Shown here in pieces: positions 1 to 51,481 of a stretch of 64,000 bases of DNA (position 1 is its first letter; each line of letters begins with the position of its first letter). The translations under genes and the position numbers were made by a program. The notes under the pieces were generated by a model. It had not been told where the DNA came from. It searched no databases and worked only from the letters and a program-made list of their open reading frames with translations. This DNA is from Pedobacter sp. ISL-64 (GTDB lineage: Bacteria; Bacteroidota; Bacteroidia; Sphingobacteriales; Sphingobacteriaceae). The DNA is taken from assembly GCF_018613605.1 (NCBI RefSeq), contig NZ_JAGGPU010000008.1, positions 186,001 through 250,000 on the forward strand. Direction: 5' to 3'.

Positions 1-538
1 TAACCTAAGGGTACTGAGCATTTCTGTTGATCAGAACGATCGCGAAAACATCGAATTGGTTCCGGTTAAAGCAAGCGCTGGTTATTTGAACGGTTTTTCT
101 GATCCTCAATATATTAGCGACCTACCGAAATTTCAACTTCCCTTAGCCGCATTAAGACAAGGTACCTTTAGGGCTTTTGAAATTATGGGCGATAGTATGT
201 TACCTGTTCAACCGGGCAGTGTGATTATTGGCGAATACCTGGATAACTGGAATGAAGTAAAAACCGGCGAAACGTACATCGTGATTAGTAAAAATGAAGG
301 TGTAGTATACAAAAGAGCAGGTAACCGTTTCAGAGAGAATAAAGATTTAAAGCTGATATCAGATAATAAGGTATATGATGCCTATACAATTGCTGCCGAC
401 GACATCCTGGAAATCTGGAAAGCCAAGGCATATATATCTACCTCATTACCAGAACCTGCACCAGATCCAACAATGGAAACTTTGACCCAGATGATGGCGC
501 AAATGCAGAAATCAATCTCTCAGTTAAATAAAAATTAA
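1..538 (+). CDS. LexA/S24-family transcriptional repressor, C-terminal part (5' end outside window)
   Basis: The reading frame is open from the first bases of the window, so the gene starts upstream and only about 178 codons are present. The visible part is an S24/LexA-type domain: the GDSM motif in FEIMGDSM (the serine nucleophile of this family) is followed by VKTGETYIVI and, further on, GVVYKRAG, which supplies the usual lysine. In Bacteroidota such domains normally follow an XRE helix-turn-helix, which would lie upstream of base 1. A TTG at 56 could be read as a start, but the frame continues upstream with family-like sequence, so I treat it as internal. The C-terminal tail is rich in Met and Gln (MMAQMQ), possibly a short helix. 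Role inferred: self-cleaving or ligand-sensing repressor. Confidence 0.75.
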   Translation, partial: NLRVLSISVDQNDRENIELVPVKASAGYLNGFSDPQYISDLPKFQLPLAALRQGTFRAFEIMGDSMLPVQPGSVIIGEYLDNWNEVKTGETYIVISKNEGVVYKRAGNRFRENKDLKLISDNKVYDAYTIAADDILEIWKAKAYISTSLPEPAPDPTMETLTQMMAQMQKSISQLNKN

Positions 539-617
539 CATTTTTTAACAAGGCCCGATTAAACCGTTTGCATTTTTATGTATCTATTGATTTAACAAAC
601 ACATAAAAAAACAGAAC

Positions 618-1070
618 ATGAAAAAGGCAATTTTAACAATAGCAATTGCAGTAATGGGATTAACCGCTGCATTTGCTCAAGACACTACAAAGAGAGTAAG
701 ACGGGCAATGCCTAAAATGACTGCCGAGCAAAGAGCAGAAAAGGTTACCGCCAGATTAGAGAAACAGCTAAGCTTAACCGCTGATCAAAAGACCAAAATT
801 TACGCCATTGAATTGGAAAACGCAAAGAAAATGGAGGCTTGGAGATCTGCTGATCAAGGCGATATGAAAGGCAAAATGAAAGAACGTAAAGCCGCTATTG
901 ACGAGCAAAAAGCTAAAATAGATGGCATTTTAACTGCTGAACAAAAAACCAAAATGGATGCTTTCCGCGCCGAAGCCAAAGAAAAGGGTGAGAAAATGAG
1001 AAAAGGAATGGGTGGAAGAGGTAAAAAAGACAAAGCACCCGTAGTTTCTAATCCTCCTGCACAAGGATAA
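618..1070 (+). CDS. Secreted Spy/CpxP-like protein (DUF4890 type)
   Basis: The 150-residue product begins with a signal peptide (about residues 1-20, ending in FAQ). The mature part is highly charged and helical, with two LTxxQ repeats (LSLTADQKTKI near 52 and LTAEQKTKM near 105) as in Spy/CpxP-like periplasmic proteins and the Bacteroidota DUF4890 family. The tail is Lys/Gly-rich (KGMGGRGKK) and ends in a Pro-containing segment. The LTxxQ motif in Spy and CpxP marks a chaperone-like envelope-stress fold. Here the exact role is unknown. It is a single gene followed directly by a hairpin terminator, so it is probably monocistronic. Confidence 0.7.
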   Translation: MKKAILTIAIAVMGLTAAFAQDTTKRVRRAMPKMTAEQRAEKVTARLEKQLSLTADQKTKIYAIELENAKKMEAWRSADQGDMKGKMKERKAAIDEQKAKIDGILTAEQKTKMDAFRAEAKEKGEKMRKGMGGRGKKDKAPVVSNPPAQG

Positions 1071-1101
1071 ATAGTTCAAACATTAATTAATTATATTTTT
1101 G

Positions 1102-1133
1102 AAAGCGTTCCGATTATTCGGGGCGCTTTTTTT
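1102..1133 (+). terminator. Rho-independent terminator after the Spy-like gene
   Basis: The arms AAAGCGTTCCG and CGGGGCGCTTT pair (with G-T wobbles) around a short ATTATT loop and run into a T tract. It separates the Spy-like gene from bioF, whose ATG is only 12 bases further on, so bioF must have a promoter overlapping this region or rely on readthrough. Confidence 0.75.
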
Positions 1134-1144
1134 ACTTTTGAACG

Positions 1145-2266
1145 ATGAGCAAAATTGAACAGTTTCTTAACGGTAAACTTCAGGAACGAAAAGATAACCT
1201 TTCGATCAGGAATTTATCGACGAACATCCCTCCTTTTGATTTTTGTTCTAATGATTATTTAGGTTTTGCCAGATCCGATGAATTAAAAAAACAGATTGAC
1301 GATACCATAACCACACGCTCCAATTACCTGAACGGAGCTGGAGGTTCGCGACTGTTAAGCGGAAATACCGCGTTTACTGAAGAAACCGAGCAGTTTATTG
1401 CCGATTTTCACCTGGCCGAAAGTGGATTGATCTTTAATTCCGGTTATGATGCCAATGTAGGGCTATTATCAAGCATCCCGCAGCGCGGCGACACCATTAT
1501 TACTGACGAATTGATTCACGCCAGCATTATAGATGGCTGCAGGTTAAGCCACGCTACGCGTTATAAATTCCTTCATAACGATATAAACGATCTTGAAACC
1601 AAACTGAAACTGGCAAAAGGAAACATATTTGTAGTGGCAGAAAGCGTTTATTCTATGGATGGAGATATTGCACCATTAATAGAGCTATCTAACCTTTGTG
1701 AGCGCTACCAGGCCAACCTGATTGTAGATGAAGCTCATGCTACGGGAGTTTTTGGTGCAAGGGGCAGCGGATTGATCAACCAGCTTAACCTGACCAGTAA
1801 AGTATTTGCACGAATTGTAACCTTTGGAAAAGCCTTAGGCGTACACGGAGCCATTATTTTAGGAAGTAAAAACTTACGCCATTACCTTATTAATTTTGCA
1901 AGATCGTTCATTTACACCACAGCTGCTCCCATTCATAATATAGTTGCGGTTAGATCGGCATACCAACACTTAAATAAAATTGATCATCAGCTGATTCATC
2001 AAAAAATTGCATTGTTTAGAAATATGTTAAAAGAGCAAAACATTAGTGCACTTGATAGCGAAAGTACTATTCAGGGTATTTTGTTTTCACCAAATGAAGC
2101 AACTAAACTGGCCGCTACGGCACTGCAAAGCAAAGGTTTTGATGTACGGGCAATATTAAGCCCAACAGTAGCTTTGGGCAAAGAAAGGCTCAGAATCTGT
2201 CTTCACAACTTTAATACCGACGAGGAAATTATTTCGTTGGTTAACCACCTTAAAGAATTGAATTAA
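1145..2266 (+). CDS. bioF: 8-amino-7-oxononanoate synthase
   Basis: BioF is the PLP enzyme that condenses pimeloyl-ACP/CoA with L-alanine in biotin synthesis. The 373-residue protein has the alpha-oxoamine synthase pattern: CSNDYLGFA near 34-42, GAGGSRLLSGN near 65, the PLP-contacting VDEAHATG (Asp195, His198) and the Schiff-base lysine Lys229 in TFGKALG. Length fits the family (about 370-390). The stop codon TAA is immediately followed by the ATG of bioD, so the two are translationally adjacent. It could in principle be a related 2-amino-3-ketobutyrate CoA ligase, but the bioD neighbour makes BioF much more likely. Confidence 0.9.
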   Translation: MSKIEQFLNGKLQERKDNLSIRNLSTNIPPFDFCSNDYLGFARSDELKKQIDDTITTRSNYLNGAGGSRLLSGNTAFTEETEQFIADFHLAESGLIFNSGYDANVGLLSSIPQRGDTIITDELIHASIIDGCRLSHATRYKFLHNDINDLETKLKLAKGNIFVVAESVYSMDGDIAPLIELSNLCERYQANLIVDEAHATGVFGARGSGLINQLNLTSKVFARIVTFGKALGVHGAIILGSKNLRHYLINFARSFIYTTAAPIHNIVAVRSAYQHLNKIDHQLIHQKIALFRNMLKEQNISALDSESTIQGILFSPNEATKLAATALQSKGFDVRAILSPTVALGKERLRICLHNFNTDEEIISLVNHLKELN

Positions 2267-2875
2267 ATGGCTAAATATTTTATCACAGGCATTGGAACAG
2301 GTATCGGAAAAACATTAATCAGTGCCATTTTAACCGAAAAACTAAAAGCCGATTATTGGAAACCGATCCAATCGGGAGATTTAGATACTAGCGATAGCAT
2401 AACATTAGGTAGTTTAATAAGCAATACGCAAACCGTTATCCACCCGGAAAGCTACAGACTAACACAACCCCTATCACCGCATTTATCAGCGAGATTAGAT
2501 GGCATTGACATTGATCTGAACAAAATCAATATGCCTTTAACGGAGAACAATCTGATTATTGAAGGCGCTGGGGGTTTAATGGTACCCTTAAACGAAAAAG
2601 AGCTGATTATCGACCTGATCAAAAAGTTGAATATTGAAGTGATACTGGTTTCACAAAATTATTTAGGAAGTATTAACCACACACTTTTATCTGTCAATCT
2701 GCTTAAACAATATAAAATTCCAATTAAAGGCATCATTTTTAATGGCGATGAGAATGTGGAAACGGAAAGATATATCCAGCAATATACCAAAATAAAAAAG
2801 CTGGGCAATGTACCTAGCTTCAGCGATATCGATAAAGAAAAAGTGCTGACTGCCGGCCAGGACCTTTTTATTTAA
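2267..2875 (+). CDS. bioD: ATP-dependent dethiobiotin synthetase
   Basis: BioD closes the ureido ring of dethiobiotin from 7,8-diaminopelargonate, CO2 and ATP. The 202-residue protein starts with the P-loop GIGTGIGKT (Lys15, Thr16), then WKPIQSG (Lys32, substrate/CO2 site) and EGAGGLMVPL, all characteristic of the family. The ATG directly abuts the bioF stop, implying co-translation. bioA and bioB are not next to it in this window, so the biotin genes are split. It is slightly shorter than E. coli BioD (about 225 residues), mainly at the C terminus. Confidence 0.9.
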   Translation: MAKYFITGIGTGIGKTLISAILTEKLKADYWKPIQSGDLDTSDSITLGSLISNTQTVIHPESYRLTQPLSPHLSARLDGIDIDLNKINMPLTENNLIIEGAGGLMVPLNEKELIIDLIKKLNIEVILVSQNYLGSINHTLLSVNLLKQYKIPIKGIIFNGDENVETERYIQQYTKIKKLGNVPSFSDIDKEKVLTAGQDLFI

Positions 2876-2898
2876 CAAATTCCAAAAGCCAGTTATAG

Positions 2899-3212
2899 TG
2901 TGTTTTTTTTGGAAAGCAGTTGTCGTACTGCATTTAAAGTTTAGTCCTGTCTTCTGCTTGTAGTCCCGATTTGAACGAAATCGGAAGCTACCGCGTCAAC
3001 CAGGTTTAGGACTGTAGCGCTTCTGCAACTATTACTGGTTTAATAGCATAATACAGAGTTTTATTTATTTCTTGAATCTCCACCTCAAATAGTAGTATTG
3101 GCACTGCCACCTAAACCCGATCAAAGCGGGATGCTCCCGATTTTTCCATCGGAGCAGAAGCGAGAGCGGGATTGCTGTTAACTAATGCCTCCATCCCTGC
3201 TTTCCAAACACA
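2899..3212. repeat. About 310-bp gap element framed by inverted repeats
   Basis: The 377-base gap between bioD and the SGNH hydrolase gene holds no convincing gene. Near its ends lie TGTGTTT(TTTTT)GGAAAGCAG (2899-2919) and CTGCTTTCCAAACACA (3197-3212), exact reverse complements of each other apart from five extra Ts. Inside are a perfect hairpin near 2963-2981 (arms CCGATTT/AAATCGG) and the structured repeat described separately at 3109-3190. Such framing suggests a discrete repeat unit or MITE-like insertion, but no direct target duplication was seen. Confidence 0.45.
3109..3190 (+). ncRNA. Structured repeat resembling Bacteroidota Flavo-1-type elements, copy 1
   Basis: The segment starts CTAAACCCGAT, contains a hairpin (GCTCCCGAT paired with ATCGGAGC, one bulge) and closes with AGCGGGATTGCTG. 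Its order of conserved blocks matches a second element at 45921-46003, although the central hairpins differ in sequence. From memory this layout (a CCTGAT-like block, a variable hairpin, then a GGATAGCAGGA-like block) resembles the Flavo-1 RNA motif of Bacteroidota. I cannot run a covariance search, so family membership is inference. Function is unknown. Confidence 0.4.
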
Positions 3213-3253
3213 TGGCCATCTAACAAGGCAGCAAACCACTATCGCCATAAAAA

Positions 3254-3949
3254 TTATCGATCAGCTAAGTAACCAGACTTTTTAAGAAATTCTGCCCAAA
3301 CCTGGTATCCTGCCGGAATAAGGTGTAAACCATCTTTGGTAAGTTCTGCCCTTAAATGTTTGTCCTGATCGGTAAAATTTGGATATAAGTCAATAACTGT
3401 TACATTTTTATCTGCAAATTTTCTGATTTCATCATTTAACCAAAGAATATGTTCGTCTTTGCCATAATGGTTTTTAAATTTTTCGAAAGCACTGTTCACT
3501 GGCAATAGCGTATTGAAATAGATGTGTGTTTTCTTAGAACCTTTTCTGATTCTGGCAATCATTGTTTTATAATTTCTTAAGATCACACTATCTGGAACAT
3601 TCCGGGAGATATCATTTATACCAATCAGGATAAAAACCTTTGTCGGTTTGCCATCAATTACATCTTGTAAACGCTCTAAAACACCAAAAGTAATATCGCC
3701 TGAAATCCCCCTGTTTTTTGCCTGTGGCAGATCTAAAAGTTTAGCCCAATCCGTGCCAGCTGTAATGCTGTTACCCAAAAAGACAAAATCTGTTTTAGAT
3801 TTTGGATCGGCTTTAAACTTAGCCACCAACTCAACATATTTCCCAGGACGGTAAGTACTGTCCCATTTTACTACCTGAGCCGTAGCTGCTGTAAAACTCA
3901 ACGTAACTACAACAACGGTTACCAATAACTTGTTAAAAAGTGCTTTCAT
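3254..3949 (-). CDS. Secreted SGNH/GDSL-family hydrolase
   Basis: The 231-residue protein has a signal peptide (about 1-24, ending in TAQ) and the four SGNH blocks: FLGNSIT with Ser61, GISGD with Gly84, LIGIND with Asn112, and DGLHL with Asp206 and His209. It should be a periplasmic or surface esterase/lipase-like enzyme. The family includes acetylxylan esterases, platelet-activating-factor acetylhydrolase-like enzymes and lysophospholipases, and the sequence does not say which. It is the last gene of a minus-strand run that follows the SusC/SusD pair, 26 bases after the glycerophosphodiesterase gene, suggesting joint use on lipid-derived or ester substrates. Confidence 0.85.
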   Translation of the reverse strand: MKALFNKLLVTVVVVTLSFTAATAQVVKWDSTYRPGKYVELVAKFKADPKSKTDFVFLGNSITAGTDWAKLLDLPQAKNRGISGDITFGVLERLQDVIDGKPTKVFILIGINDISRNVPDSVILRNYKTMIARIRKGSKKTHIYFNTLLPVNSAFEKFKNHYGKDEHILWLNDEIRKFADKNVTVIDLYPNFTDQDKHLRAELTKDGLHLIPAGYQVWAEFLKKSGYLADR

Positions 3950-3976
3950 ATTATACTTTTATAAAGGCCTAAAATA

Positions 3977-4876
3977 CTATTTTGCCTGAACTAAAATATC
4001 CGGATAATCAGAAATAATACCATCAACATTTAAGGCTTTTAATTTCTGAATATCGGCTAAGGTATTGGCAGTCCAGGGAATGATTTTTACACCATCAGCA
4101 TGTGCTTTTTTAACCAATTCTTCATTCACCATTTGCCAAACCGGACTTAAAATAAAGGGCTTATAACCTAAATCGGCAATATTTTCTTCATATGTTTTTT
4201 TATTGGCAACCAAAAAAGAGGTTTTTATTTTAGGATACTTTTCGTGAATAATCTGGATTGTCCTTTTATCAAAAGATTGGATTACTACAAAATCAGCGAT
4301 TTTTTTCTTTAAAATTACATCCATTAAAAGTTTAACAAACTCTTCGGGTTTAGGGTTGGTAATCCCATCTTCTTTTTCGTTACATTTAGTTTCTATGTTA
4401 TAAAAAAACTGCTTGCGCTTATTTGCCTTAATATCGTGCTGAACCGCATCTATTAGGTCAGAAAGTAATGGAAGATATGTTTTTTCTTTTTTCTGCTGAG
4501 GAAATTGCTCATAATACCTGGTACCCAGATTAAACTGTTTAATTTCAGCGTAGTTCATTCCAAAAATCGGATATTTTTTGGCATCAGTTACAGGAATATC
4601 TTTTCCGTCTGGCGTAAGCATAAATGCCGGGCTTAGGTAATCATCGTGGGTTATTACTACTTTACGATCTTTAGAAATATGGGTATCCATTTCCAAAGTA
4701 GTAATTCCTTCTATTTTCATGGCGTTTAACATCGCTGGAATGGTATTTTCGGGCATAAGTCCTCTTCCACCACGATGTGCTTCTGCGCTAAATACCGGAA
4801 ATTTAACTTCCTGGCTAAATGATTTAACTGCAAATGCAGACAAGAAAATAAAAATTGCTGTTGTATTAAGTTTCAT
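3977..4876 (-). CDS. Secreted glycerophosphodiester phosphodiesterase
   Basis: The start at 4876 gives a clean signal peptide (MKLNTTAIFIFLSAF..., cleavage near residue 21); upstream in-frame codons are not peptide-like. Family motifs are complete: EAHRGGRG with His34, PENT with Glu43, LEMDTH with Glu62 and Asp64, and THDD with His77. The C terminus holds VKIIPWTANT and GIISDYPD, as in GlpQ/UgpQ-type enzymes. It should hydrolyse glycerophosphodiesters (phospholipid head groups) to glycerol 3-phosphate and an alcohol in the periplasm. Calcium or another divalent metal is usual. It sits between a metallophosphoesterase and an SGNH hydrolase, all on the minus strand downstream of SusC/SusD. Confidence 0.88.
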   Translation of the reverse strand: MKLNTTAIFIFLSAFAVKSFSQEVKFPVFSAEAHRGGRGLMPENTIPAMLNAMKIEGITTLEMDTHISKDRKVVITHDDYLSPAFMLTPDGKDIPVTDAKKYPIFGMNYAEIKQFNLGTRYYEQFPQQKKEKTYLPLLSDLIDAVQHDIKANKRKQFFYNIETKCNEKEDGITNPKPEEFVKLLMDVILKKKIADFVVIQSFDKRTIQIIHEKYPKIKTSFLVANKKTYEENIADLGYKPFILSPVWQMVNEELVKKAHADGVKIIPWTANTLADIQKLKALNVDGIISDYPDILVQAK

Positions 4877-4900
4877 ATTTAGAAGGGATTTTATAGTGGC

Positions 4901-4984
4901 GTCAGCTGTTACCATCTGACACTATTAATCTATAATTGGTTTAGCTTTTAAAATTAATAATCTGTCAGATGTTACCATCTGACA
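4901..4984. repeat. Two related hairpins between phosphodiesterase genes
   Basis: TGTCAGATG-TTAC-CATCTGACA at 4963-4984 is a perfect 9-bp stem with a 4-base loop. A second, nearly identical unit, GTCAGCTG-TTAC-CATCTGAC, lies at 4901-4920 with one arm mismatch. Both are in the gap upstream of the glycerophosphodiesterase start on the minus strand. They could be terminator-like, mRNA-stabilising, or REP-like repeats. No T tract follows on the minus strand. Confidence 0.6.
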
Positions 4985-5021
4985 GCACAGGATCCGACAG
5001 CACGGAACAGATATAAGGATG

Positions 5022-6431
5022 TTAAGCATTAATTTCCGCCTCAAATTTTTCTCCGAAGCGGTCGGTGGCCACAACCTTTACTTTTTTAACCGATGGTTCA
5101 AAATGTGCCAAGAACAAGTGATCGGTTGAGCGGGGCTCTACAAATGGCCTCGGATTTGGTAGCTTATCGCCTTTATACAACTTTACTGCCAATGGATCAT
5201 AACCATCTTGTTGTGCCAATACACCCATTGGTTTTCCATCCAAAAAATATTCAACTTTCCATTCGGGGTCATAATTCCAAACATTGGCAATTAATCTTTT
5301 TTGATTGGTTAAGGTATCAACATAAATATCAAGCTGCTCTTTACGGTCTCTCCCGGTCGATTTGTAATACCATTTTAAATTGGTTCCATCTACTTCATAA
5401 ACGCCATAACCACGCGGCGTGCCATCTTCGCAGATCGGGCCCGTCCACCAGCCACCACAAACGGTACCATGGTTATGTTCGTAAATGCCGTTCTTGATTA
5501 CATTTTTATTAAAATGTGTATGTCCCGACATGATATGAACGTTTTTGAAATCTTTTAATACGGCATAAAAATCATTGTTATTTTTAACAGCATTATGTAC
5601 AGGAATATGCAGGCAGATAATCAGTAATGCATCTTTAGGTACTAGTTGAAGATCTTTGGCCAGCCATTCCAACTGCGTTGGGGTGATGTACCCGTCGTAA
5701 GTTCTTTCTACCCCCAAATAACGTACATCATCTAAAACCACGTAATGAGCCTTACCCCTGTTAAAAGAGTAATAAGTTGGGCCATAATGTGCTTGAAAAG
5801 TCCGGTCAGAGGTATCATCACCTCCTTGCCTGTAATCCTGATCATGATTTCCTAATGCCTGAAAAAATGGGATCCCGATTTTGGCAATAGCCTCATCGTA
5901 TACAGGAAAAAGATCAAAATTATCCCAAACTAAATCACCTACACCGATTCCATGAACGGGTGTTTTCCCCATGCCTTTAACCACTTCTCTTGTATCAGGA
6001 ACTGAGGTTTCCATCATCTGCGCGACATCTTTTTTATTCTTCACCTGCGGATCTGCCCAAATGATAAAGTTGTGTTTGTTGTCGTTTTGTTTTAGTGGCT
6101 TAAGATCGAAATTTAATTTACCTGCGGTATCTGGTTTATAATAATGGCGGGCAATGCTACTTTCGGTTTTAAACTCGTAACCCGAAGGCGTGCTTATCCA
6201 AACAAAACGGGCCAGTTCGTGAAGTTTAATCTCATAGTTACCGCTTTTATCGGTTTGCACCACACTGTATCCATCAGAAATCACTACTCCTGAAACAGAT
6301 TTACCTTTGCTGGTTACCGTTCCGCTTACCAATCCATCAACAGCGAATAAGGAAGATGGAAAGGATTTTAAACTAACAAATAAGGTTGTGGTTAATAAGG
6401 TTGATTTTTGTATAAATGATCTTCTATTCAT
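5022..6431 (-). CDS. Secreted calcineurin-like metallophosphoesterase with N-terminal carboxypeptidase-regulatory-like domain
   Basis: The start at 6431 (MNRRSFIQKS) gives an RRSF twin-arginine-like export signal of about 30 residues; the longer frame has no signal-like start. Residues 33-110 resemble a carboxypeptidase-regulatory-like beta domain (VSGTVTSKGKSVSGVVISDG). The phosphoesterase core follows: ADPQ (Asp127; Gln where many relatives have His), GDLVWD (Asp166), GNHD (195-197 region), CLHIPVH and SGHTHF. A C-terminal beta domain typical of the calcineurin-like phosphoesterase C-terminal family completes about 469 residues. Two-metal phosphomonoesterase or phosphodiesterase activity is expected, substrate unknown. 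It follows the DUF5689 gene in the SusCD locus. Confidence 0.85.
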   Translation of the reverse strand: MNRRSFIQKSTLLTTTLFVSLKSFPSSLFAVDGLVSGTVTSKGKSVSGVVISDGYSVVQTDKSGNYEIKLHELARFVWISTPSGYEFKTESSIARHYYKPDTAGKLNFDLKPLKQNDNKHNFIIWADPQVKNKKDVAQMMETSVPDTREVVKGMGKTPVHGIGVGDLVWDNFDLFPVYDEAIAKIGIPFFQALGNHDQDYRQGGDDTSDRTFQAHYGPTYYSFNRGKAHYVVLDDVRYLGVERTYDGYITPTQLEWLAKDLQLVPKDALLIICLHIPVHNAVKNNNDFYAVLKDFKNVHIMSGHTHFNKNVIKNGIYEHNHGTVCGGWWTGPICEDGTPRGYGVYEVDGTNLKWYYKSTGRDRKEQLDIYVDTLTNQKRLIANVWNYDPEWKVEYFLDGKPMGVLAQQDGYDPLAVKLYKGDKLPNPRPFVEPRSTDHLFLAHFEPSVKKVKVVATDRFGEKFEAEINA

Positions 6432-6470
6432 GATTTTTAAGGATATTAAATCATAGGATTTAAATTCTTC

Positions 6471-6510
6471 AATATTAAGAAGGCCAGTTCTCACTAGCCC
6501 TCTTAATATT
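6471..6510. other. Intercistronic hairpin between DUF5689 and metallophosphoesterase genes
   Basis: AATATTAAGAAGGCC pairs with AGCCCTCTTAATATT around a short loop. A T run follows on the plus strand, but none follows on the minus strand where the genes lie. For the minus-strand operon it is therefore more likely a processing or stability element than a terminator. Confidence 0.5.
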
Positions 6511-6516
6511 TTTTAT

Positions 6517-8058
6517 TTAATTTACAAGGGATGTACCACCCTCAATAGCTGTTAATGGTGAAGTAACCGTTAAAGGAACATTGGTTAGTGATCTTCCATT
6601 TACCCATCTGCCAGATGTAGCGTCGTAAACTCCTCCCAACTTCACAAAACTGGTGGCAGCAGGGAAGGATAAACGAGTTGAGTTGGTTCCTGCGCCGTAA
6701 AACAACTGCAATCCACGGGTTGAAGGATTAAATGTGGTATAAAAATCGTTAATGGTAATTCTATAACCAACCTCTGGTGGGCCAGCCGAATAGAAGTTCC
6801 CGTTTGCTCCACCATAAAAAATCACATCTAACGGAGTTGAAGTTACTGTAACCGCTGTCCCCTCAAAAACTGCTATACCAGCAACATTACCACTATTAGC
6901 CAACAAGTTATCAGTTTTCGCACCAATACCATCAGCACCAACAGCTCCTGTAGCAACAGAATAATCTACACTTCTTATCCATTTGGCACTGCTAATATCT
7001 GTAGAAAGTACACTCGAAGAACCATTAATTCTTTTTGGTGTACCACCAACGTAAAAATATTGACCTTTGCTAACCGTTCCACTGGTAAGGTTAAACTTGT
7101 AGGTCCTTGCTCCTCCTGTATTCCATCCTTCGGTTGGAAATGTAGTAGCCCCGGCATTATTACTCGTATATACCGAAAATGGCGTGGTAGCAAAATTAAT
7201 ATCTCGTGTAGCAAGAAACTGGATATATTCATTATTAGCATCTCCTCCATTTGGATCAACAAGAAAGCCTGAAATTACTATTGGTGAAAGTTTAGGTAGT
7301 GGTACAAAAACAAAATCATTTTCCTCACGCATCCAAAGTTGGATTTGATTAACCCCATTTGTTGGAATGATAAATGGAATTCCTGTAAAGTTTCCAGTAG
7401 GCGACAATGCTCTTGAAGCAAAATTAGCTGTTGCTTCTGTATGAATGGTTGCTTTTCCGTATCCGTCGTTTATAGTTTTATCGCCACTGTAAGTAGCTCC
7501 AGCCACTATTTCTGGTTCGTAAATTGAATTAGCAATAGTAACAAGTGTACTTTCGAAAGTATTTGGTGCAGCTAACATTGCAGCTATATTAACTACTAGC
7601 ATTTTTGGTGTTTTACCACTCGCTATTTTAGTGATCGAGTTAAATGGAACACCTGTAATTTGTAAAATACCATTCACACGCTTTAAAGTTCCTCCTTCAA
7701 CTTTAACATGAATAGAATCGCCTGGAATAAATTTTGACGCGTCGGCACCAAGATTAAAAGCCATACCTCTTAATGAATCGATTCCATTACCTGCCAACCT
7801 ACTATTTTGCATAATTAATAAGCCTGTTGGAGAATTTCCCGATCTAAAATCTGATATGACAACACCTTTAACCAAAGTTGCACCAGCCATTAATTCTGAT
7901 GTAAGTTGTACGTCTCCGCCTTTATAAAGTTTTTTTAAATCGAAGTTGGCGATAAAAGAACTTGGCATAATTTTAATGTAATCATCTTCTCTCTTACATG
8001 CGGTAAAAATGCAAGCCGTTATTACTAGTAAAAGGGTATAATTTAATGTCTTTTTCAT
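6517..8058 (-). CDS. DUF5689-type surface lipoprotein of the SusCD locus
   Basis: Starting at 8058 gives MKKTLNYTLLL... with a lipobox ending at TAC, so the mature protein (total 513 residues) is lipid-anchored. The N-terminal half (ELMAGATLVKGVVISDFRSGN, LPDSIHVKV-like segments) has the look of DUF5689, a Bacteroidota family nearly always encoded next to SusC/SusD. The C-terminal half (PIVISGFLVDPNGGDANNEYIQFLATRDI) resembles a lamin-tail-like beta fold. It begins 10 bases after the susD stop. It probably helps bind the substrate at the cell surface. No catalytic motif was recognised. Confidence 0.72.
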   Translation of the reverse strand: MKKTLNYTLLLVITACIFTACKREDDYIKIMPSSFIANFDLKKLYKGGDVQLTSELMAGATLVKGVVISDFRSGNSPTGLLIMQNSRLAGNGIDSLRGMAFNLGADASKFIPGDSIHVKVEGGTLKRVNGILQITGVPFNSITKIASGKTPKMLVVNIAAMLAAPNTFESTLVTIANSIYEPEIVAGATYSGDKTINDGYGKATIHTEATANFASRALSPTGNFTGIPFIIPTNGVNQIQLWMREENDFVFVPLPKLSPIVISGFLVDPNGGDANNEYIQFLATRDINFATTPFSVYTSNNAGATTFPTEGWNTGGARTYKFNLTSGTVSKGQYFYVGGTPKRINGSSSVLSTDISSAKWIRSVDYSVATGAVGADGIGAKTDNLLANSGNVAGIAVFEGTAVTVTSTPLDVIFYGGANGNFYSAGPPEVGYRITINDFYTTFNPSTRGLQLFYGAGTNSTRLSFPAATSFVKLGGVYDATSGRWVNGRSLTNVPLTVTSPLTAIEGGTSLVN

Positions 8059-8068
8059 AAGCTGAATA

Positions 8069-9637
8069 TTAAGGTTTTTGCCACCAAACCAATGTATTGA
8101 TATCATCAGTGCCTTGAGAGGCTACTGCATTTTTGTAACTTGTTGGGTTTGTAGATTGCGTAATTAACGGATAATTTAATCTTGCTGGCATTCTGCCGCC
8201 ATTTTCTAAGCCATTACCCTTTGGTATAAATGGATGACCAGTTCTTCGATACTCGAACCACTGTTGAAAATCTACCAAAAACATTGCATAATATTTTTGC
8301 AAGTGGATCAATTCCATTTTACTTGCTGCACCTGCCGTTACATTATCTAAAGGAAGTGTGTTATCCCAATCGATATCTGCAGTAACTGCATAAGTTTTTA
8401 TTAATGGATCGTTTGGATTTGTAAATAAAGTAGGCAACCAATAATTAATCGCATCACCTATCCCTTTGTAATAATAGGTTTCGCCAGTTGTACTAATCCA
8501 TCCTTTCGCTGCTGCTTCTGCTAAAATAAAATCGACTTCAGCAGCATTCATAATAATACCAGTAAAAGCATCCGTCTGAAGTGTAATCCCATTAGTGACC
8601 TGAGCATCAGAATAAAAATATGCTTGTTTCACTACAGAACTACCAGCAGCGTAACCACTAGGAACACCAATGTACCCTCCAGGACCTTGCGCAATTCCCC
8701 AACGGCCAATATTGTTTCTTCCGTATTTTGTATCTATTCGTGGATCGGCCCATGTAGTAAGGTTATCCATAAAAAACTTCGTAATTGCTGGAGTTCTAAA
8801 ATCTACAGCACGAATACCCATAAAAGGTGATGAGTAAACTGCAGTGCTGCTGTTTGTACCGTTCCAAAGAATTTTAGCTGTTTGGCTATTGTCCTGAATA
8901 ATTGGGTATTTGGCTGGATTAGTATCAATCATTTCTTTGATCTTTGCTATTACCTGGGCACTTACCTCTGATTTTCCTGCGATGCGCATTAAAAGTCTTA
9001 AATATAAAGAATTGCCTAGTCTACGCCATTTAGTTACATCACCTTGGTATACTGGGTCGCCGGTTGGTATAATTGTAGCTCCCTCACTTAATAGTGTATT
9101 TGCTTCTTCTAACTTTTTAAATAAATCTAGATAGATATCTTTTTGTTTATCAAAAATTGGCTCCAAAACCCCATCCTTACCTTGGTTTGCTTGCGTGTAT
9201 GGCACATCACCGTAAACATCTGTAAGTAATTGAAATACCCAAGCTTCAGTGATTTTAGAAATTGCTTGATATGACTTATTTATAGAACCAGCCTGACTCG
9301 CAATAGTGCTGATGTTTCTTAAATTAGTTAGCTCAGGATACCACGCATTCCAGGTTTGATCTGCAACATTACGTCTTACATCATACCTAAATATTCTTCC
9401 CTCACCATCATTAATATCTACAGTAACCTGCATCAGCTCATTATTGAAACTACGATTTCTACTCATGTTGGCACTTAAAACATTTACCAATGCTGGCGCC
9501 AATAGTTGGTTTGCTGTTGTTGTGCTTTTTCCAATTGGATCTGTATTAACTTCATTAAAATTTTTCTTACAAGAAAAAAACGAAATGCTAATAACAAATA
9601 ATAATGTGTAACTGGATATGTTTTTAATATTTTTCAT
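8069..9637 (-). CDS. SusD/RagB-family nutrient-binding lipoprotein
   Basis: The 522-residue protein begins with a lipoprotein signal (SISFFSC, Cys23) and has the SusD-like pattern of the group often called SusD-like 2: FNEVNTDP near the N terminus, AWVFQLLTDVYGDVPYTQA near 130-150, RRLGNSLYLRLLMRIAG near 205, and a C-terminal QQWFEYRRTGHP segment. It forms the lid of the outer-membrane transporter encoded immediately upstream (gap 11 bases), capturing substrate and closing over SusC. The specificity cannot be read from sequence. Its downstream neighbours are phosphoesterases rather than glycosidases. Confidence 0.88.
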   Translation of the reverse strand: MKNIKNISSYTLLFVISISFFSCKKNFNEVNTDPIGKSTTTANQLLAPALVNVLSANMSRNRSFNNELMQVTVDINDGEGRIFRYDVRRNVADQTWNAWYPELTNLRNISTIASQAGSINKSYQAISKITEAWVFQLLTDVYGDVPYTQANQGKDGVLEPIFDKQKDIYLDLFKKLEEANTLLSEGATIIPTGDPVYQGDVTKWRRLGNSLYLRLLMRIAGKSEVSAQVIAKIKEMIDTNPAKYPIIQDNSQTAKILWNGTNSSTAVYSSPFMGIRAVDFRTPAITKFFMDNLTTWADPRIDTKYGRNNIGRWGIAQGPGGYIGVPSGYAAGSSVVKQAYFYSDAQVTNGITLQTDAFTGIIMNAAEVDFILAEAAAKGWISTTGETYYYKGIGDAINYWLPTLFTNPNDPLIKTYAVTADIDWDNTLPLDNVTAGAASKMELIHLQKYYAMFLVDFQQWFEYRRTGHPFIPKGNGLENGGRMPARLNYPLITQSTNPTSYKNAVASQGTDDINTLVWWQKP

Positions 9638-9648
9638 TTTCTTTTTAA

Positions 9649-12600
9649 TTAAAGACCTACAACTAAACGTACACCATAAGATCTGGTTGATGGCAATTGT
9701 CCGGTTTCAAAACCTTGTACAATGTCTGTTCCCGATAAGGTACCAAACTCAGGATCGAACGCCGGCCATGGTGACCAAATAAACAGGTTACGACCATACG
9801 CACCAAGGGTAAGCTTGGTGAAGCCAATTTTTCTAAGAAACATTGGTCCGAAAGAATAAGTGATGTTTGCCTCTCTAAACTTTAAATAATCGGTACGGAA
9901 AATACTTCCTTCTGCTTGATCAGATCCATATATTGAGGTATAGAAATTCTCTAGATTGGTAGCCACAATATCATTAGTACGATAGGTACCATCTGTGTTT
10001 TGCACCACTCCATCGCCAACCACACCATTATAACGACCTGGCAATGTTAAAGCCAATTTACCAAGCGCAGCCATCCTCGAGAATGTTAATGAATGTGCCA
10101 CGGCTCCCAACTGAGCATCGAACAATCCTGAAACGGTAAAACGATCGTAAGTTATTGTTGTACCAAAACTGAATCTAAATTTTGGCGTTGTGTTACCTAA
10201 GTAAATTAGATCTGTGCCGGTTTTTGCATTACCAGTTGTAGCGTCATATACAATTTGACCATCTGGAGAGCGAACAAATCCCCTACCATATAAATCGCCC
10301 ATACTACCTCCAACGTTGGCAACAATTTGTCCGCCACCTAGTGCTCCGGTTCTTAAAACAACCGAACTATCTGCTAATTCTATAATCTTGTTTCTATTTG
10401 CGGTAAACGTTCCATTAAGTTGCCATTTAAATTTCTTTGTTTGCAATAGTGTTCCGCTGATGGAAACCTCCAAACCTTTGTTTTGAACTTCGCCTACGTT
10501 AAATACAGCTACATTATAACCAGTAGCACGATCTACAATTCTACTTAAAATTTGATTTTTGGTATTGCCTGAGTACGCAGCGAAATCAAAGTTTAATCTA
10601 TTTTTAAATAATCGTAATTCTGTACCTAATTCAATTGTTGTAGTTTTTAATGGCTTTAAGTTTGGATTTGGCAAAATGCTTGGGTTAGTCATTGCGCTAT
10701 CCGGATAAATTCCGTTAGAGGCTAAACTGTAGTTATAAGCTGTGCGATATGGCGTAGTACCACCACTACCTACTTGAGAAATTGACGCTCGTAACTTAAA
10801 AAAGCTGATGAATTTTGGCATTTCCCAAAGATCTGATGGTACAAATGATGCACTTGCCGATGGATAAAAGAAGCCCACGTTATCCGTTCTAAATGGAGTT
10901 GCCAAAGTACTGTTCCAATCTTGGCGACCGGTAATATCTAAGTATAAATAATTTTTAAAGCTGAATGATAACAATGAATAAAAACTGTTAATTCTATACC
11001 TCGCTGTATCTGGTACTGATATTAAAGGATTTGCATTATTAGTCAAGCTATAAATCCCTGGAATAACTAATCCATCAGCTCTTAGTTCACCTTTTTTATA
11101 TTCATTACGCATTTGGCTACCACCCACTGTTGCATTCATTTGAATTGATGGCGAGATCTTTTTATTATATCTCAATAAGAAATCAGCATTAATCTCATAA
11201 GAATTAATATTTTGTTGACGATAAGATCCCTGAGCAAATTTATTACCTGCAGCATCATAAGGGCGTTGTGTATCGCGAACATCATGGTTATAATCTACCG
11301 ATCCGCGAACCAATAAACTCAACTCCTTAGTAAGTTTATAAGTAGCTTGTAAGCTTCCTAATAATCCATTTCTGCGTTGTTTATTAAGATATTGCTCTGA
11401 TATGGCATATGGACTTTCCGGATTCGTAGTGGTAATATTTACAAACTGTTCATTCACTCGTCCGTTAGCCCAGTAATCTTTATACCAATCTGTATTTACG
11501 TTTGGTTGCGCAAACATAAACCAATACATTAACGATTGATTACCGTATCCTGTAGCTGGTAGGTTATCGCTATGTCTATTATTATAAATGGCTTTAAATT
11601 GAATATTTAACTTTTTCGTCACATCAGAATTAGCAGAGTAAGACAACGAAGTACGCTCTAAGCCAGTGTTTGGAACAATCCATTCATTGTTACCATGCGA
11701 AGCCGAGAATCTCATCGCTACACCTTTGTACGTTCCGTCTAAACTCACTGCGTTTGAAGATTCAAAACCAGTTTGGAAAAATGCATCAACAGGGTTGCCG
11801 TATGCTACCCATGGCGTTCTGGTTGTTCCTCTTGTTTTAGTAGCTGGATCGTATTGAAAAAAGCTTGTTCCTTGATTAAATGGTGCTCCCCAACTTGCAC
11901 TCGTTGCGTTTGTACTCGCACCATCATCAGAAGCGCCGTAAGAGAAATAATTTACACCAAATTGGCCTTGCCCGAATTCACTTTGAATTTCAGGACTTTT
12001 GTTCACTTTCTCCCAGGTACTATTAGATGTAAAAGTGATTGATAGTTTTTTTCTTGATTTATTACCTGACTTGGTGGTAATGATGATTGCACCATTCGCA
12101 CCACGCTGACCGTAAAGTGCTGATGCACCTGGTCCTTTCAGTACGGTAACACTTTCAATATCATCGGGATTTAAATCGTTTAGTGCAGAACCAAAATCTG
12201 GTGGCATAATGTCTCCCGATGTTCCATAAACACCTCCAGATGAAGCTGCAGTTCTTCTCGTAGAACTACTTGCTACAACTCCGTCTATCACAATTAGCGC
12301 TTCGTTATCACCAGTAAGGTTATTTTCGCCACGAAGAATAATTTTATTTGAAGCCGCAGGTCCGCTGTTTCTTATCAAATTTAAACCTGCTACTTTTCCT
12401 GATAAGGCGTCCGTCCAGTTACTGGCTACTGCATTTGTAAATTCGTTACTATCAAGCTTGGTTGTTGCATAACCTAAGGCCTTTTCTTCACGTTTAATGC
12501 CCAAAGCCGTTACAACAACATCATTTAATGAGCTTGTGGAAGATTGTAACCTCACTACAGCATTATTATCATTGGTATTAAAAACCTTGGAAAGGGTTTT

Positions 12601-12960
12601 ATAGCCTACCATATTATATAAAACCGTTGCCCCCTTAGCAACAGTGATAGAATAATTTCCCTTCTCATTTGTTACGGCTAAAAACTTTTTATTCTTATCG
12701 GTTATGGTGGTCCCAATTAATGTTTGTCCATCCTCATCATCTAAAACCGTTCCCTTGATGACAACGTTCTGTACTGCCGTTTGTGCAAAACTGTAATTAA
12801 TGCAAATAAGTTGTATTACGGCTGCGAACACCAAAACGCTAAAGCGTTTTAGCTTTCCTTTAAAAAAAGGTTTACTTTCTTTGTGATTGTCGGGATTGCT
12901 TCTCTTTACATGCAGAACGCACTCATACCACGAAATCTGTTGAGTAAAATTTTTGATCAT
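9649..12960 (-). CDS. SusC/RagA-family TonB-linked outer membrane transporter
   Basis: The 1103-residue protein has an unusually long N-terminal leader (about 60 residues, hydrophobic FSVLVFAAVIQLICINYSFAQ, cleavage near residue 60). Next come a carboxypeptidase-regulatory-like domain (VIKGTVLDDEDGQTLIGTT), a TonB-box-like stretch LNDVVVTALGIKREEKALGYA, a plug with LSGKVAGLNLIR and SVTVLKGPGASALYGQRGANG, and a long beta-barrel ending with VRLVVGL. These are the standard SusC marks. It imports an oligomeric nutrient with TonB energy, paired with SusD. It heads the minus-strand operon to 3254. No sigma/anti-sigma pair is adjacent, so regulation is not evident from context. A later start within the first 35 residues is possible. 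Confidence 0.92.
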   Translation of the reverse strand: MIKNFTQQISWYECVLHVKRSNPDNHKESKPFFKGKLKRFSVLVFAAVIQLICINYSFAQTAVQNVVIKGTVLDDEDGQTLIGTTITDKNKKFLAVTNEKGNYSITVAKGATVLYNMVGYKTLSKVFNTNDNNAVVRLQSSTSSLNDVVVTALGIKREEKALGYATTKLDSNEFTNAVASNWTDALSGKVAGLNLIRNSGPAASNKIILRGENNLTGDNEALIVIDGVVASSSTRRTAASSGGVYGTSGDIMPPDFGSALNDLNPDDIESVTVLKGPGASALYGQRGANGAIIITTKSGNKSRKKLSITFTSNSTWEKVNKSPEIQSEFGQGQFGVNYFSYGASDDGASTNATSASWGAPFNQGTSFFQYDPATKTRGTTRTPWVAYGNPVDAFFQTGFESSNAVSLDGTYKGVAMRFSASHGNNEWIVPNTGLERTSLSYSANSDVTKKLNIQFKAIYNNRHSDNLPATGYGNQSLMYWFMFAQPNVNTDWYKDYWANGRVNEQFVNITTTNPESPYAISEQYLNKQRRNGLLGSLQATYKLTKELSLLVRGSVDYNHDVRDTQRPYDAAGNKFAQGSYRQQNINSYEINADFLLRYNKKISPSIQMNATVGGSQMRNEYKKGELRADGLVIPGIYSLTNNANPLISVPDTARYRINSFYSLLSFSFKNYLYLDITGRQDWNSTLATPFRTDNVGFFYPSASASFVPSDLWEMPKFISFFKLRASISQVGSGGTTPYRTAYNYSLASNGIYPDSAMTNPSILPNPNLKPLKTTTIELGTELRLFKNRLNFDFAAYSGNTKNQILSRIVDRATGYNVAVFNVGEVQNKGLEVSISGTLLQTKKFKWQLNGTFTANRNKIIELADSSVVLRTGALGGGQIVANVGGSMGDLYGRGFVRSPDGQIVYDATTGNAKTGTDLIYLGNTTPKFRFSFGTTITYDRFTVSGLFDAQLGAVAHSLTFSRMAALGKLALTLPGRYNGVVGDGVVQNTDGTYRTNDIVATNLENFYTSIYGSDQAEGSIFRTDYLKFREANITYSFGPMFLRKIGFTKLTLGAYGRNLFIWSPWPAFDPEFGTLSGTDIVQGFETGQLPSTRSYGVRLVVGL

Positions 12961-13462
12961 AATTATTATAGTATATCCGGTTAGTAATAGGGTTCATATG
13001 TGCGATTTATTTTGTCCGGATTTGCGGGCAAAGTAAGCCTGTTTATGTTAAAAATATATTAAGCAAGTATTAACGTATTAAAGACAACTCTAATAAGTTG
13101 CGATTTATTTTATTTAACTTACTATATATTTCGTTATATAAAATTATAAAAACAAATCGAAACTAAAAACAATAAAATCAATCAATACGAAATATTTCTT
13201 AATTGAATGTTTAAAAAGACAGGAATATGGATGATTGTAAAAGAAGTAGATTAATCAATTATACAGCTAAATCACAAATAAGTGACTTATCCTTAATTAG
13301 CAAAGGAATAAGGAGCCGAAAAGCAAAAGAATATTAACACAACGATATCTCGTAATAATTTTATTACAAACCCAACTATGCTAAAAAACAGAGAGCAACA
13401 AAACGAAACACTGTCTTGTAACATTTATATGCAAATCAAATTCGAAAGATAAAGAAACACGA
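12961..13462. other. AT-rich gap without recognisable gene
   Basis: About 500 bases between the susC start and the end of the membrane hydroxylase gene. It is very AT-rich. The promoter of the susC operon must lie here, but I found no clear TAnnTTTG box on the minus strand near the start. One weak imperfect stem (CTTATCC with GGAATAAG, near 13290-13310) was seen. No ORF, tRNA or terminator was convincing. Confidence 0.6.
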
Positions 13463-14683
13463 TTAACCTAGCTTTATATACTTAAATACATGTTTCATGT
13501 AAAGTTTACGTAAAGAGAATGTCCGCTCAAGCACAATCAAAATAATCACAGGGATAATTAAAAATTCCAGCAGACTAAAAGTGTAGAAAAAGAAGCCAAA
13601 AATCAATATCAGCCTGAAACATTCCAAATAATAAATCCACCTTCTCTGCTCTAAAAGGGCTCCGATATTGATTAATGTAACCAAGCTAAAGATAAGTATT
13701 GCACCCTTATTGAATGGTGTTAAAGCACTATAAAATAAAGTAGCGCCTGTAAGCATTGCAACTACCCCGATCAGCTGCATATTTAAATAGGTTTTAAACT
13801 TGGGCTTAGCATGGTTCTGTTTTTTATGCTGAAAGTAACGTTCTTCTAAAATTGGCCGGATGTTTTGATCCATCAACGCTGGACTCCCGAATACGGCATT
13901 CCATTTAGCCTTAAATCCATTTGCACGCCTATATGCCTCTCCTATTTCCAGATAATAATGAAAATGCTGCCATAGGAAACTATAACTTTTAATAGGATGT
14001 GTTAACCCATACTTCGGTGCTTCTTCTTCCGCCTGGAAAGTACCAAATAGTTTATCCCAGAAAACAAAAACGTCACCATAGTTTTTATCCAGGTATTTCT
14101 CGTCAGAAGCATGATGAACACCATGTAAAGAGGGCGTGATGAATATATGTTCCAGCCAGCCCAGCTTACCGATTAATTGTGTATGCGTAAAAAATGAATA
14201 AGCTCCATGAGCTAAAAGTATGGTAATAATCATATTGGGATGAAAACCAATTAATGGTAATATACACCAAAACACATTGCGGAAAATGGCTTGAATGGTC
14301 GTAATCCTCGCAGCCGCGGATAAATTAAACTCTTCGCTCTGGTGATGAACGATATGTGCAGCCCACAAAAAATTAATTTCATGGCCTAGCCTATGGTACC
14401 AGTACCAAACAAGATCTGTCGACAAAAGCAATAATATCCACACATACCACTTTGTAGAAATATCAAAAATTGCATAATTTAAATACACCCAATCGTACAC
14501 CTGATAAAAACTCGCCGCAATAAATAAGTTCAATAACCTTTCGGCAATACCTACACTAAAATTTGCAACCGTACTTTCATATTTAAATATTTTCGCTTTT
14601 TTTTGGTGCCGGGCGATTCTAAACTCAATAAATACAAAAATAAAAAATGCTGGAATAGCAAATGCAAGGTAGTTTACCGTCAT
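13463..14683 (-). CDS. Sterol desaturase/fatty acid hydroxylase-family membrane protein
   Basis: The 406-residue protein has several membrane segments and the eight-histidine di-iron pattern of the family: HRLGH (His97, His101), HIVHH (His110, 113, 114) and HGVHH (His187, 190, 191). The spacing and the NLSAAARITTIQ segment resemble alkylglycerol monooxygenase/TMEM195-like members, which hydroxylate lipid chains, but bacterial substrates are largely undefined. Three or four extra hydrophobic segments occupy residues 290-395, beyond the catalytic core. It is a single gene in the gap between the SusCD operon and the polyphosphate/pentose phosphate genes. A TAAGTTTG box sits about 30 bases upstream. 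Confidence 0.85.
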   Translation of the reverse strand: MTVNYLAFAIPAFFIFVFIEFRIARHQKKAKIFKYESTVANFSVGIAERLLNLFIAASFYQVYDWVYLNYAIFDISTKWYVWILLLLSTDLVWYWYHRLGHEINFLWAAHIVHHQSEEFNLSAAARITTIQAIFRNVFWCILPLIGFHPNMIITILLAHGAYSFFTHTQLIGKLGWLEHIFITPSLHGVHHASDEKYLDKNYGDVFVFWDKLFGTFQAEEEAPKYGLTHPIKSYSFLWQHFHYYLEIGEAYRRANGFKAKWNAVFGSPALMDQNIRPILEERYFQHKKQNHAKPKFKTYLNMQLIGVVAMLTGATLFYSALTPFNKGAILIFSLVTLINIGALLEQRRWIYYLECFRLILIFGFFFYTFSLLEFLIIPVIILIVLERTFSLRKLYMKHVFKYIKLG

Positions 14684-14714
14684 AACTTTTGTGGTCTTTT
14701 TTAGTTTAACGGAA

Positions 14715-14722
14715 CAAACTTA
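14715..14722 (-). promoter_or_regulatory. Putative Bacteroidota -7 box of the hydroxylase gene
   Basis: TAAGTTTG on the minus strand fits TAnnTTTG and lies about 32 bases before the ATG at 14683. No matching TTTG -33 box was found at the expected spacing. Confidence 0.3.
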
Positions 14723-14846
14723 AATATATTCCATTAAATACATAGATTTTATAGAATATATTATTACACCTAAATTACTCCGATCTTCATTTAATGTTTG
14801 TTGTTTTAATTTATTTGTAGAACTTCGAAATTATAAATACACAATT

Positions 14847-51432: not shown

Positions 51433-51481
51433 TTTAAAGTTTGTTTGTTTAATAAAAATTTTTGGTTATTGCATTTTAAGG

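Follow-up and report, generated by a model that had tools for sequence, protein, structure and literature searches.

A SusCD locus of Pedobacter with exported phosphodiesterases, its probable link to glycerol phosphate and the putative exchange of its receptor genes

In this study, we analyzed a stretch of 64,000 nucleotides from Pedobacter sp. ISL-64 (contig NZ_JAGGPU010000008.1, positions 186,001 to 250,000; hereafter the window), in which a SusC/SusD (SusCD) transporter pair on the reverse strand is followed by genes for exported phosphoesterases. Transporters of the SusCD type are commonly taken to import glycans. Our analysis indicates that this locus probably takes up and breaks down glycerol-phosphate diesters, and that its receptor genes were exchanged as a cassette while the enzyme genes were kept. 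An earlier note, made from the sequence of this stretch, had proposed that phosphodiesters are taken up here instead of sugars; this core idea is supported by conservation of the gene set and by the glpT, glpD, glpK and MIP channel (glpF) genes that relatives carry in addition. By comparative genomics, a widespread type of SusCD is connected with the glycerol-3-phosphate pathway; this offers a concrete substrate to test and an annotation rule for similar loci. In addition, with the receptor cassette exchanged and the enzyme locus otherwise stable, uptake is separated from catalysis.

Gene content and conservation of the locus

The genes lie on one strand (the reverse) and in the order that the earlier note had given, with their families now assigned by profile. 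The first is a SusC/RagA TonB-dependent outer-membrane transporter (9649-12960) with CarbopepD_reg_2, plug and barrel domains (TIGR04056, TIGR04057, Plug and TonB_dep_Rec_b-barrel), which scores 541.9 bits on TIGR04056 against a cut-off of 368.25. It is followed by a SusD-like_2 surface lipoprotein (8069-9637; PF12771, 1.1e-101), whose best match among solved SusD homologues is 3ejn (1.1e-35), and by a DUF5689 lipoprotein (6517-8058; PF18942, 3e-18), which we propose as a surface ligand binder. The open reading frame (ORF) of the latter spans 6517-8106, and the start at 8058, already chosen in the earlier note, is preferred (MKK, then a lipobox-like Cys). The enzymes come next: a Tat-type metallophosphoesterase (MPE; 5022-6431 within an ORF of 5022-6494, likely start at 6431 with MNRRSF) of MetallophosN-Metallophos-MetallophosC architecture (PF16370, PF16371 and PF00149; MetallophosC 1.2e-46, MetallophosN 1.6e-22, Metallophos 1e-05), an exported glycerophosphodiester phosphodiesterase (GDPD; 3977-4876 within an ORF of 3977-4915, likely start at 4876; PF03009, 1.9e-35), and an exported SGNH/GDSL hydrolase (3254-3949; PF13472, Lipase_GDSL_2, 6.1e-28). 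Export signals were judged by eye.

Scans of seven proteins between 3254 and 14683 and of the flanking ORFs at 618-2875 and 14847-15602 gave no match to glycoside hydrolase or lyase families, which agrees with what the earlier note had stated on such enzymes. The cluster has the adjacent susC and susD of a polysaccharide utilization locus (PUL), but the scanned proteins, which cover 618-15602, include no carbohydrate-active enzymes (CAZymes). An ordinary glycan PUL, whose phosphoesterases would trim phosphorylated sugars as on phosphomannans, would suit a transporter type best known from glycan loci and an SGNH hydrolase resembling a sugar O-acetylesterase; however, glycoside hydrolases were found neither here nor among nine recurring neighbor proteins scanned from related loci (rarer neighbors lie outside that scan), and we consider this the least probable of the readings discussed. 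The gene content instead fits the definition of a phosphate utilization system (PUS) given in excerpts of a study of Flavobacterium johnsoniae, namely a SusCD-like pair co-localized with phosphoesterases and not with CAZymes (PMC8115612).

To assess conservation, 59 genomes, 36 of them from the same genus (including the genome under study), were searched for MPE at 1e-20. It was present in 32 genomes, 30 of which belong to the genus; six same-genus genomes gave no match and one gave only a fragment. A total of 37 stretches were compared, and 28 were counted, one per genome; the nine others carry distant or broken MPE copies or come from other genera. Among the 28 same-genus loci, the neighbors of MPE include SusC in 26, SusD in 26, DUF5689 in 27, GDPD in 22 and SGNH in 21. 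SusC is absent from two of them: the L037 stretch begins at the end of a contig, and L050 lacks the cassette. At least one flanking gene of the window is kept in 15 of the 28 loci only, so that elsewhere it is the cluster itself that is kept, at another place.

A wider set comprised the best 80 of 462 named relatives across Bacteroidota, some of whose loci stop at contig ends and at least six of which lie on the same contigs as loci of the 28-locus set; locus counts ignore kinship. In 69 of these 80 loci (17 named genera and four named orders), SusC is located upstream of MPE on its own strand, and in 72 SusD is; DUF5689, GDPD and SGNH genes are near MPE on the same strand in 53, 46 and 30 loci, respectively. 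The chance expectation of a same-strand SusC no more than 10 kb upstream is about 4% (57 SusC in 6.5 Mb, a lower bound because 56 of 165 candidates were scored). Because the profiles derive from Pedobacter loci, they may overlook more distant members. As a small contrast, the three remaining GDPD regions in this genome contain no SusC-like ORF, as judged by reading. The link between SusCD and phosphoesterases, whose conservation in other Bacteroidota the earlier note had proposed to check, is not accidental, as relatives keep the phosphoesterase neighbors in both locus sets.

Association with glycerol-3-phosphate genes and predicted functions

Unlabeled neighbor ORFs of 108 loci were clustered, and one representative of each recurring group was scanned. 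The groups comprise GlpT, GlpK, a GlpD-like protein, an MIP channel, a DeoR-family regulator, ECF sigma, FecR and a PLD-like protein. The GlpT of locus L043 reaches 660.1 bits on TIGR00712 (cut-off 632.55) and stays below the stricter NF008433 (748); the GlpK of L106 reaches 753 bits on TIGR01311 (cut-off 590.35); the GlpD-like protein of L055 (DAO and DAO_C) scores 300.6 bits, below its cut-off of 360; and the MIP channel of related loci, called GlpF here, is above the cut-off of TIGR00861 with no glycerol-specific model reached. When the 80 loci were split by MPE identity into 41 close (52% or more) and 39 distant ones (48% or less), at least one of glpT, glpD, glpK and glpF was found on either strand of the compared stretch in 22 of the close versus one of the distant loci (Fisher's test, 1.7e-07, to be read with the kinship of the loci and the later choice of the split in mind). 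GDPD was found in 38 of 41 versus 8 of 39 loci, and SGNH in 30 of 41 versus 0 of 39. The 22 glp-bearing loci include Sphingobacteriales, Chitinophagales and Cytophagales, and the order in Sediminibacterium (L100) is DeoR(reverse)-GlpD-GlpT-SusC-SusD-DUF5689-MPE-GDPD-SGNH-GlpK-GlpF. Within the genus, GlpT occurs in 8 of the 36 genomes, in all eight within about 3 kb of MPE in this locus type, and GlpD lies within about 12 kb of MPE in seven of these eight versus two of the other 28 genomes.

E. coli GlpQ, a GDPD enzyme, feeds glycerol-3-phosphate to GlpT and GlpD, and we propose the same route for the related loci. In the scheme that we infer, which covers the substrate, the role of each enzyme, a dephosphorylation step and regulation, the substrate would be captured on the cell surface by SusD and DUF5689 and then taken in through SusC at the expense of TonB energy. 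Periplasmic MPE and GDPD would then hydrolyze its phosphodiester bonds to yield glycerol-3-phosphate, or glycerol and inorganic phosphate (Pi) if MPE also removes phosphate, and SGNH would cleave off ester-linked acyl or acetyl groups. Where GlpT is present, as in related loci, it would carry glycerol-3-phosphate inward and GlpD would oxidize it. Since no GlpT was found in the genome of the window, dephosphorylation would be expected here, followed by glycerol entry through the MIP channel and the action of GlpK and GlpD. Genes for DeoR, GlpD-like, GlpK and MIP channel proteins lie together elsewhere in this genome (C40): its GlpK scores 749 bits on TIGR01311 (cut-off 590.35), the MIP channel scores 177.9 on TIGR00861, above the cut-off, and the GlpD-like protein has glycerol-3-phosphate dehydrogenase as best match at 297.7 bits, below the cut-off of 360. 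The E. coli system differs in having no SusCD, DUF5689, MetallophosN/C enzyme or SGNH, whereas the search of the genome of the window found no GlpT, and its GlpD-like gene lies away from the locus.

The proteins were also compared with known motifs and structures. The GDPD has an apparent export signal, PF03009 and the catalytic motifs HRG, PENT, EMD and HD, as expected of a Glp-type enzyme, and its closest solved structure is 3ch0 (1e-56), with 5t91, which we take to be B. subtilis GlpQ, at 5.1e-18. The MPE sequence gave no match to solved structures at 0.001, and its AlphaFold model (mean pLDDT 87.4) predicts a catalytic domain of the Rv0805/GpdQ fold, with Z 23.4 and 22.9, respectively, a tie. 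As in GpdQ-like class III phosphodiesterases, the modeled domain thus resembles GpdQ of Enterobacter aerogenes (rmsd 2.9 over 221 residues); the two differ in that identity is 16%, MPE has additional MetallophosN and MetallophosC domains, and Rv0805 fits equally well. The motifs DPQ, GD, GNHD, HIP and GHTH are present, and D127 and Q129 are invariant in 36 aligned sequences. In the Tat-like start MNRRSF, R3 and F6 are invariant in the same alignment and R4 is nearly so, one relative outside the alignment reads MNRKSF, and TatC is encoded in this genome. The SGNH protein has the motifs GNS, SGD, GIND and DGLH, and its closest solved structures are 6njc ('Sialate O-acetylesterase | Lysophospholipase L1', 1.4e-41) and 7pzg.

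For DUF5689, the sequence gave only an insignificant match to solved structures (E 0.55). Its AlphaFold model (mean pLDDT 88.2) predicts an OB fold at about residues 152-255, perhaps with a second one before it, and a C-terminal part resembling DUF4876/lamin tail. Foldseek matches are OB-fold proteins (best E 1.4e-05, TM-scores 0.14-0.29); the OB-fold match has Z 10.6 over 88 residues (about 152-255), and the C-terminal part matches BT_1938 (4q1z, DUF4876) with Z 9.2 over 187 residues. These matches are modest, and a shared fold would be no proof of function. The model matches nucleic-acid binders with this fold, and the predicted domain belongs to a type known from proteins that bind nucleic-acid backbones. 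For Riemerella anatipestifer, excerpts of a published screen report that natural transformation requires a DUF5689 protein whose gene shares an operon with that of a predicted outer-membrane protein, and that SusC/RagA insertions lowered transformation (PMC8459023). A locus for uptake of DNA or oligonucleotides, in which DUF5689 would bind nucleic acid, SusCD import it and the phosphoesterases trim it, would fit both the OB-fold matches and the Riemerella phenotypes. However, apart from the low scores given above, the ligands of OB folds are diverse, neither GDPD nor the glp genes serve nucleic acid, and no nuclease was named among the nine recurring neighbor proteins scanned, the PLD-like one (four loci) matching nuclease models weakly. 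We therefore regard DNA uptake as very unlikely.

Several observations weigh against uptake of glycerol-phosphate diesters. The locus of the window holds no glp gene, and at the thresholds used GlpT was found neither in this locus or genome nor in 28 of the 36 genomes of the genus. A draw across the class gave GlpT in only 8 of 295 genomes; in two of these eight it adjoins the GDPD type of this locus (in one also MPE and SGNH), five of the other six have a weak GDPD match and one has none, and no SusC was found within their 1.5 kb flanks. The division into 41 and 39 loci was made after the loci were seen. The first motif of GpdQ-type enzymes is DxH; MPE has DPQ in its place, because of which its activity may differ, and Rv0805, which fits as well as GpdQ, is known as a cyclic-nucleotide phosphodiesterase. 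The nearest solved relatives of SGNH are named sialate O-acetylesterase besides lysophospholipase, and phospholipid is not favored by them; from the DUF5689 fold matches and the screen in Riemerella, DNA emerges as an alternative ligand.

Proposed exchange of the susC-susD-DUF5689 cassette

The receptor and enzyme genes appear to have different histories. Compared with the nearest relative (genome G020, locus L036), bioF, SGNH, GDPD, MPE, the ROK-family gene and gnd are 95-100% identical and the fatty-acid hydroxylase 93%; SusC, SusD and DUF5689 are 72%, 61% and 53% identical, respectively. Compared with the more distant L044, MPE and GDPD are 81% and 76% identical, but DUF5689 and SusD 84% and 89%. 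DNA identity to L036, about 92% at first, drops near position 6400 to about 56-64% and recovers over about 12600-14000. From this break and the tree conflict described below, we delimit an exchangeable susC-susD-DUF5689 cassette at 6432-12960 (reverse strand).

Across 171 pairs of 19 loci, Pearson correlations of identity were 0.90 for MPE-GDPD, 0.91 for SusC-SusD, 0.75-0.80 for DUF5689 with SusC or SusD, and 0.18-0.25 between the groups; the rank correlations were 0.81, 0.83, 0.51-0.54 and 0.03-0.22, respectively. Gene trees of 25 loci conflict. In approximately unbiased (AU) tests, SusD, SusC and DUF5689 reject the MPE clades of 10 and 8 as well as the pairing of the window with L036 (p 1.6e-4 or less), and MPE rejects the pairing of the window with L044 (p 1.6e-4 or less), L036+L040 and L036+L040+L047. 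These p-values are indicative because the trees were quick (LG+G4), the groups were named after the trees had been seen, and the window-L036 pairing has a support of only 52 in the MPE tree. The gene histories are in conflict, and susC-susD-DUF5689 appears to move between species as a cassette while the enzymes are kept. In three loci sharing the flanks of the window (L039, L041 and L042), ECF sigma and FecR precede SusC, and therefore the exchanged piece can include regulators.

Fast evolution of SusC was considered by comparing 30 SusC of this genome with 30 of G020 (56 were scored in each, so partners may be missing). Among the 30, 17 matched at 94-99%, none at 80-94%, two at 63 and 71%, and 11 below 60%. 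Against this distribution, the SusC of the locus, at 72% in a syntenic place, is unusual but not unique. Two single SusC were also followed in 12 other genomes: the first was 89-99% identical in five (one match partial) and had nothing above 40% in seven, and the second was 86-89% identical in two, 63-65% in two and 52% or less in eight. SusC turnover is therefore common in the genus, and the second of these controls gives no clean support.

Besides the SusC of the locus, L170 (G000:C10:61418-64351) and L154 (G000:C42:337804-340917), two other SusC in this genome, are only 71% and 63% identical to the best of the 30 G020 SusC and may represent further exchanged cassettes. In L050 (G021:C122), MPE-GDPD-SGNH occurs without susC-susD-DUF5689, and MPE lies directly beside the fatty-acid hydroxylase; cassette loss or an assembly fault is possible, and, because this genome is 78% complete in 760 contigs, the locus was not used as proof of loss. 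As for the flanks, one side reads as bioF and bioD (Pfam Aminotran_1_2 and AAA_26), and the other comprises the fatty-acid hydroxylase (13463-14683), a ROK-family gene and a gene reading as gnd. A functional link with the hydroxylase was dropped, as it occurs in 19 of 108 loci, is part of the Pedobacter neighborhood and is missing from the syntenic L044.

Regulation and comparison with known systems

SusCD systems with phosphoesterases are already known as a kind from published work: excerpts of the F. johnsoniae study describe PUSI and PUSII as SusCD clusters with phosphoesterases induced by Pi depletion; according to the authors, PUSI probably targets lipid head groups and nucleic acids (PMC8115612). 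Neither 'glycerol' nor 'teichoic' appears in the main text of that paper. The locus of the window resembles PUSI in that a SusCD-like pair adjoins two exported phosphodiesterases, one of them a pf00149 metallophosphoesterase, without CAZymes. The two differ in that PUSI lists ECF sigma and a pf16670 enzyme, whereas the locus has DUF5689, GDPD and SGNH; and PusD1 is pf07980/pf14322, whereas the SusD of the window is PF12771. For PUSI, Pi induction has been shown (PMC8115612). Because PUSI, with its two phosphodiesterases, was induced under Pi depletion only, and because loci without GlpT, such as that of the window, lack a complete glycerol-3-phosphate route, a phosphate-scavenging locus of the PUS type is a possible, though rather unlikely, alternative, which would import varied phosphodiesters (head groups, nucleotides) under Pi starvation, with Pi as the wanted product and carbon as incidental. 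However, glpT, glpD, glpK and glpF together with a DeoR-family gene near close relatives point to glycerol phosphate as carbon, and the different SusD family also argues against this reading. The link to phosphate limitation and PhoB boxes suggested in the earlier note found no support in an E. coli-type Pho box search, a weak argument, since that consensus may differ from the PhoB box of Bacteroidota: two matches with three mismatches lie in the window (3.92 expected), neither of them upstream of susC.

The region upstream of susC (12961-13462, reverse strand), a presumed promoter, contains no regulator gene and no ORF of at least 100 amino acids, the listing threshold there, and therefore no sigma/anti-sigma pair. 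The earlier statement that such a pair is missing thus applies to the window and does not extend to the locus type: of the best 80 loci, 26 have FecR and 23 have ECF sigma on the same strand near MPE. In addition, a DeoR-family gene is near the locus in 18 of the 41 close relatives, which would weakly suit control by a metabolite. The DeoR protein scanned has AgaR as best match, below the cut-off (248.4 versus 260), and therefore it is not shown to be GlpR.

As to the substrate, the earlier note had listed phospholipid head groups and teichoic-acid-like or other phosphodiester polymers; glycerol-phosphate compounds fit best, and head groups and glycerol-phosphate polymers are indistinguishable here. 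PhoD and GlpQ of Bacillus subtilis are teichoicases. The locus likewise combines a metallophosphoesterase with a GDPD (5t91 as given above; MPE matches PhoD 2yeq with Z 18.2); both enzymes, however, have better matches (3ch0; Rv0805 and GpdQ), and the likeness is one of sequence and fold. More speculatively, and in our view doubtful, the locus could be polymer-specific, with DUF5689 as a receptor at the cell surface that recognizes polymers of glycerol phosphate, for example teichoic acids of Gram-positive bacteria, SusCD importing oligomers, MPE (endo) and GDPD (exo) acting as a teichoicase pair, and cassette swaps following polymer decorations or escaping SusC-using phages.

In B. thetaiotaomicron, an iron-response table lists BT4724-25 (TonB receptor, RagB/SusD) near BT4727 (GDPD), a further case of SusCD near GDPD, in a gut Bacteroides; MPE and DUF5689 are not named in the pertinent line of the table (PMC10434189). 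Among the matches listed in open-licence PubMed Central texts, judged by title and the start of the abstract, no description of this locus was recognized; with respect to these matches, the glycerol-phosphate link, the DUF5689/MPE/GDPD/SGNH composition and the cassette exchange appear to be new.

Elsewhere in the window, GH92, GH97, FAD-oxidoreductase and alpha-L-fucosidase genes occur at 43421-45706, 49483-53293 and 56504-57853, and no SusC/SusD pair adjoining these genes was apparent from the ORF list. Among the related loci, L092 (record 'Flavobacteriaceae bacterium PS02338') has the Pedobacter layout with an MPE 62% identical, and its record title may be a misclassification. In L205 (3055-7103), a phospholipase C (Phosphoesterase and PLipase_C_C) adjoins a protein fusing GDPD and GH16 domains. 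In L098, L099 and L101 from Pontibacter and Rufibacter, a PLD-like protein (PLDc_2; that of L098 was scanned) lies between SusD/DUF5689 and MPE, which would suit phospholipid breakdown.

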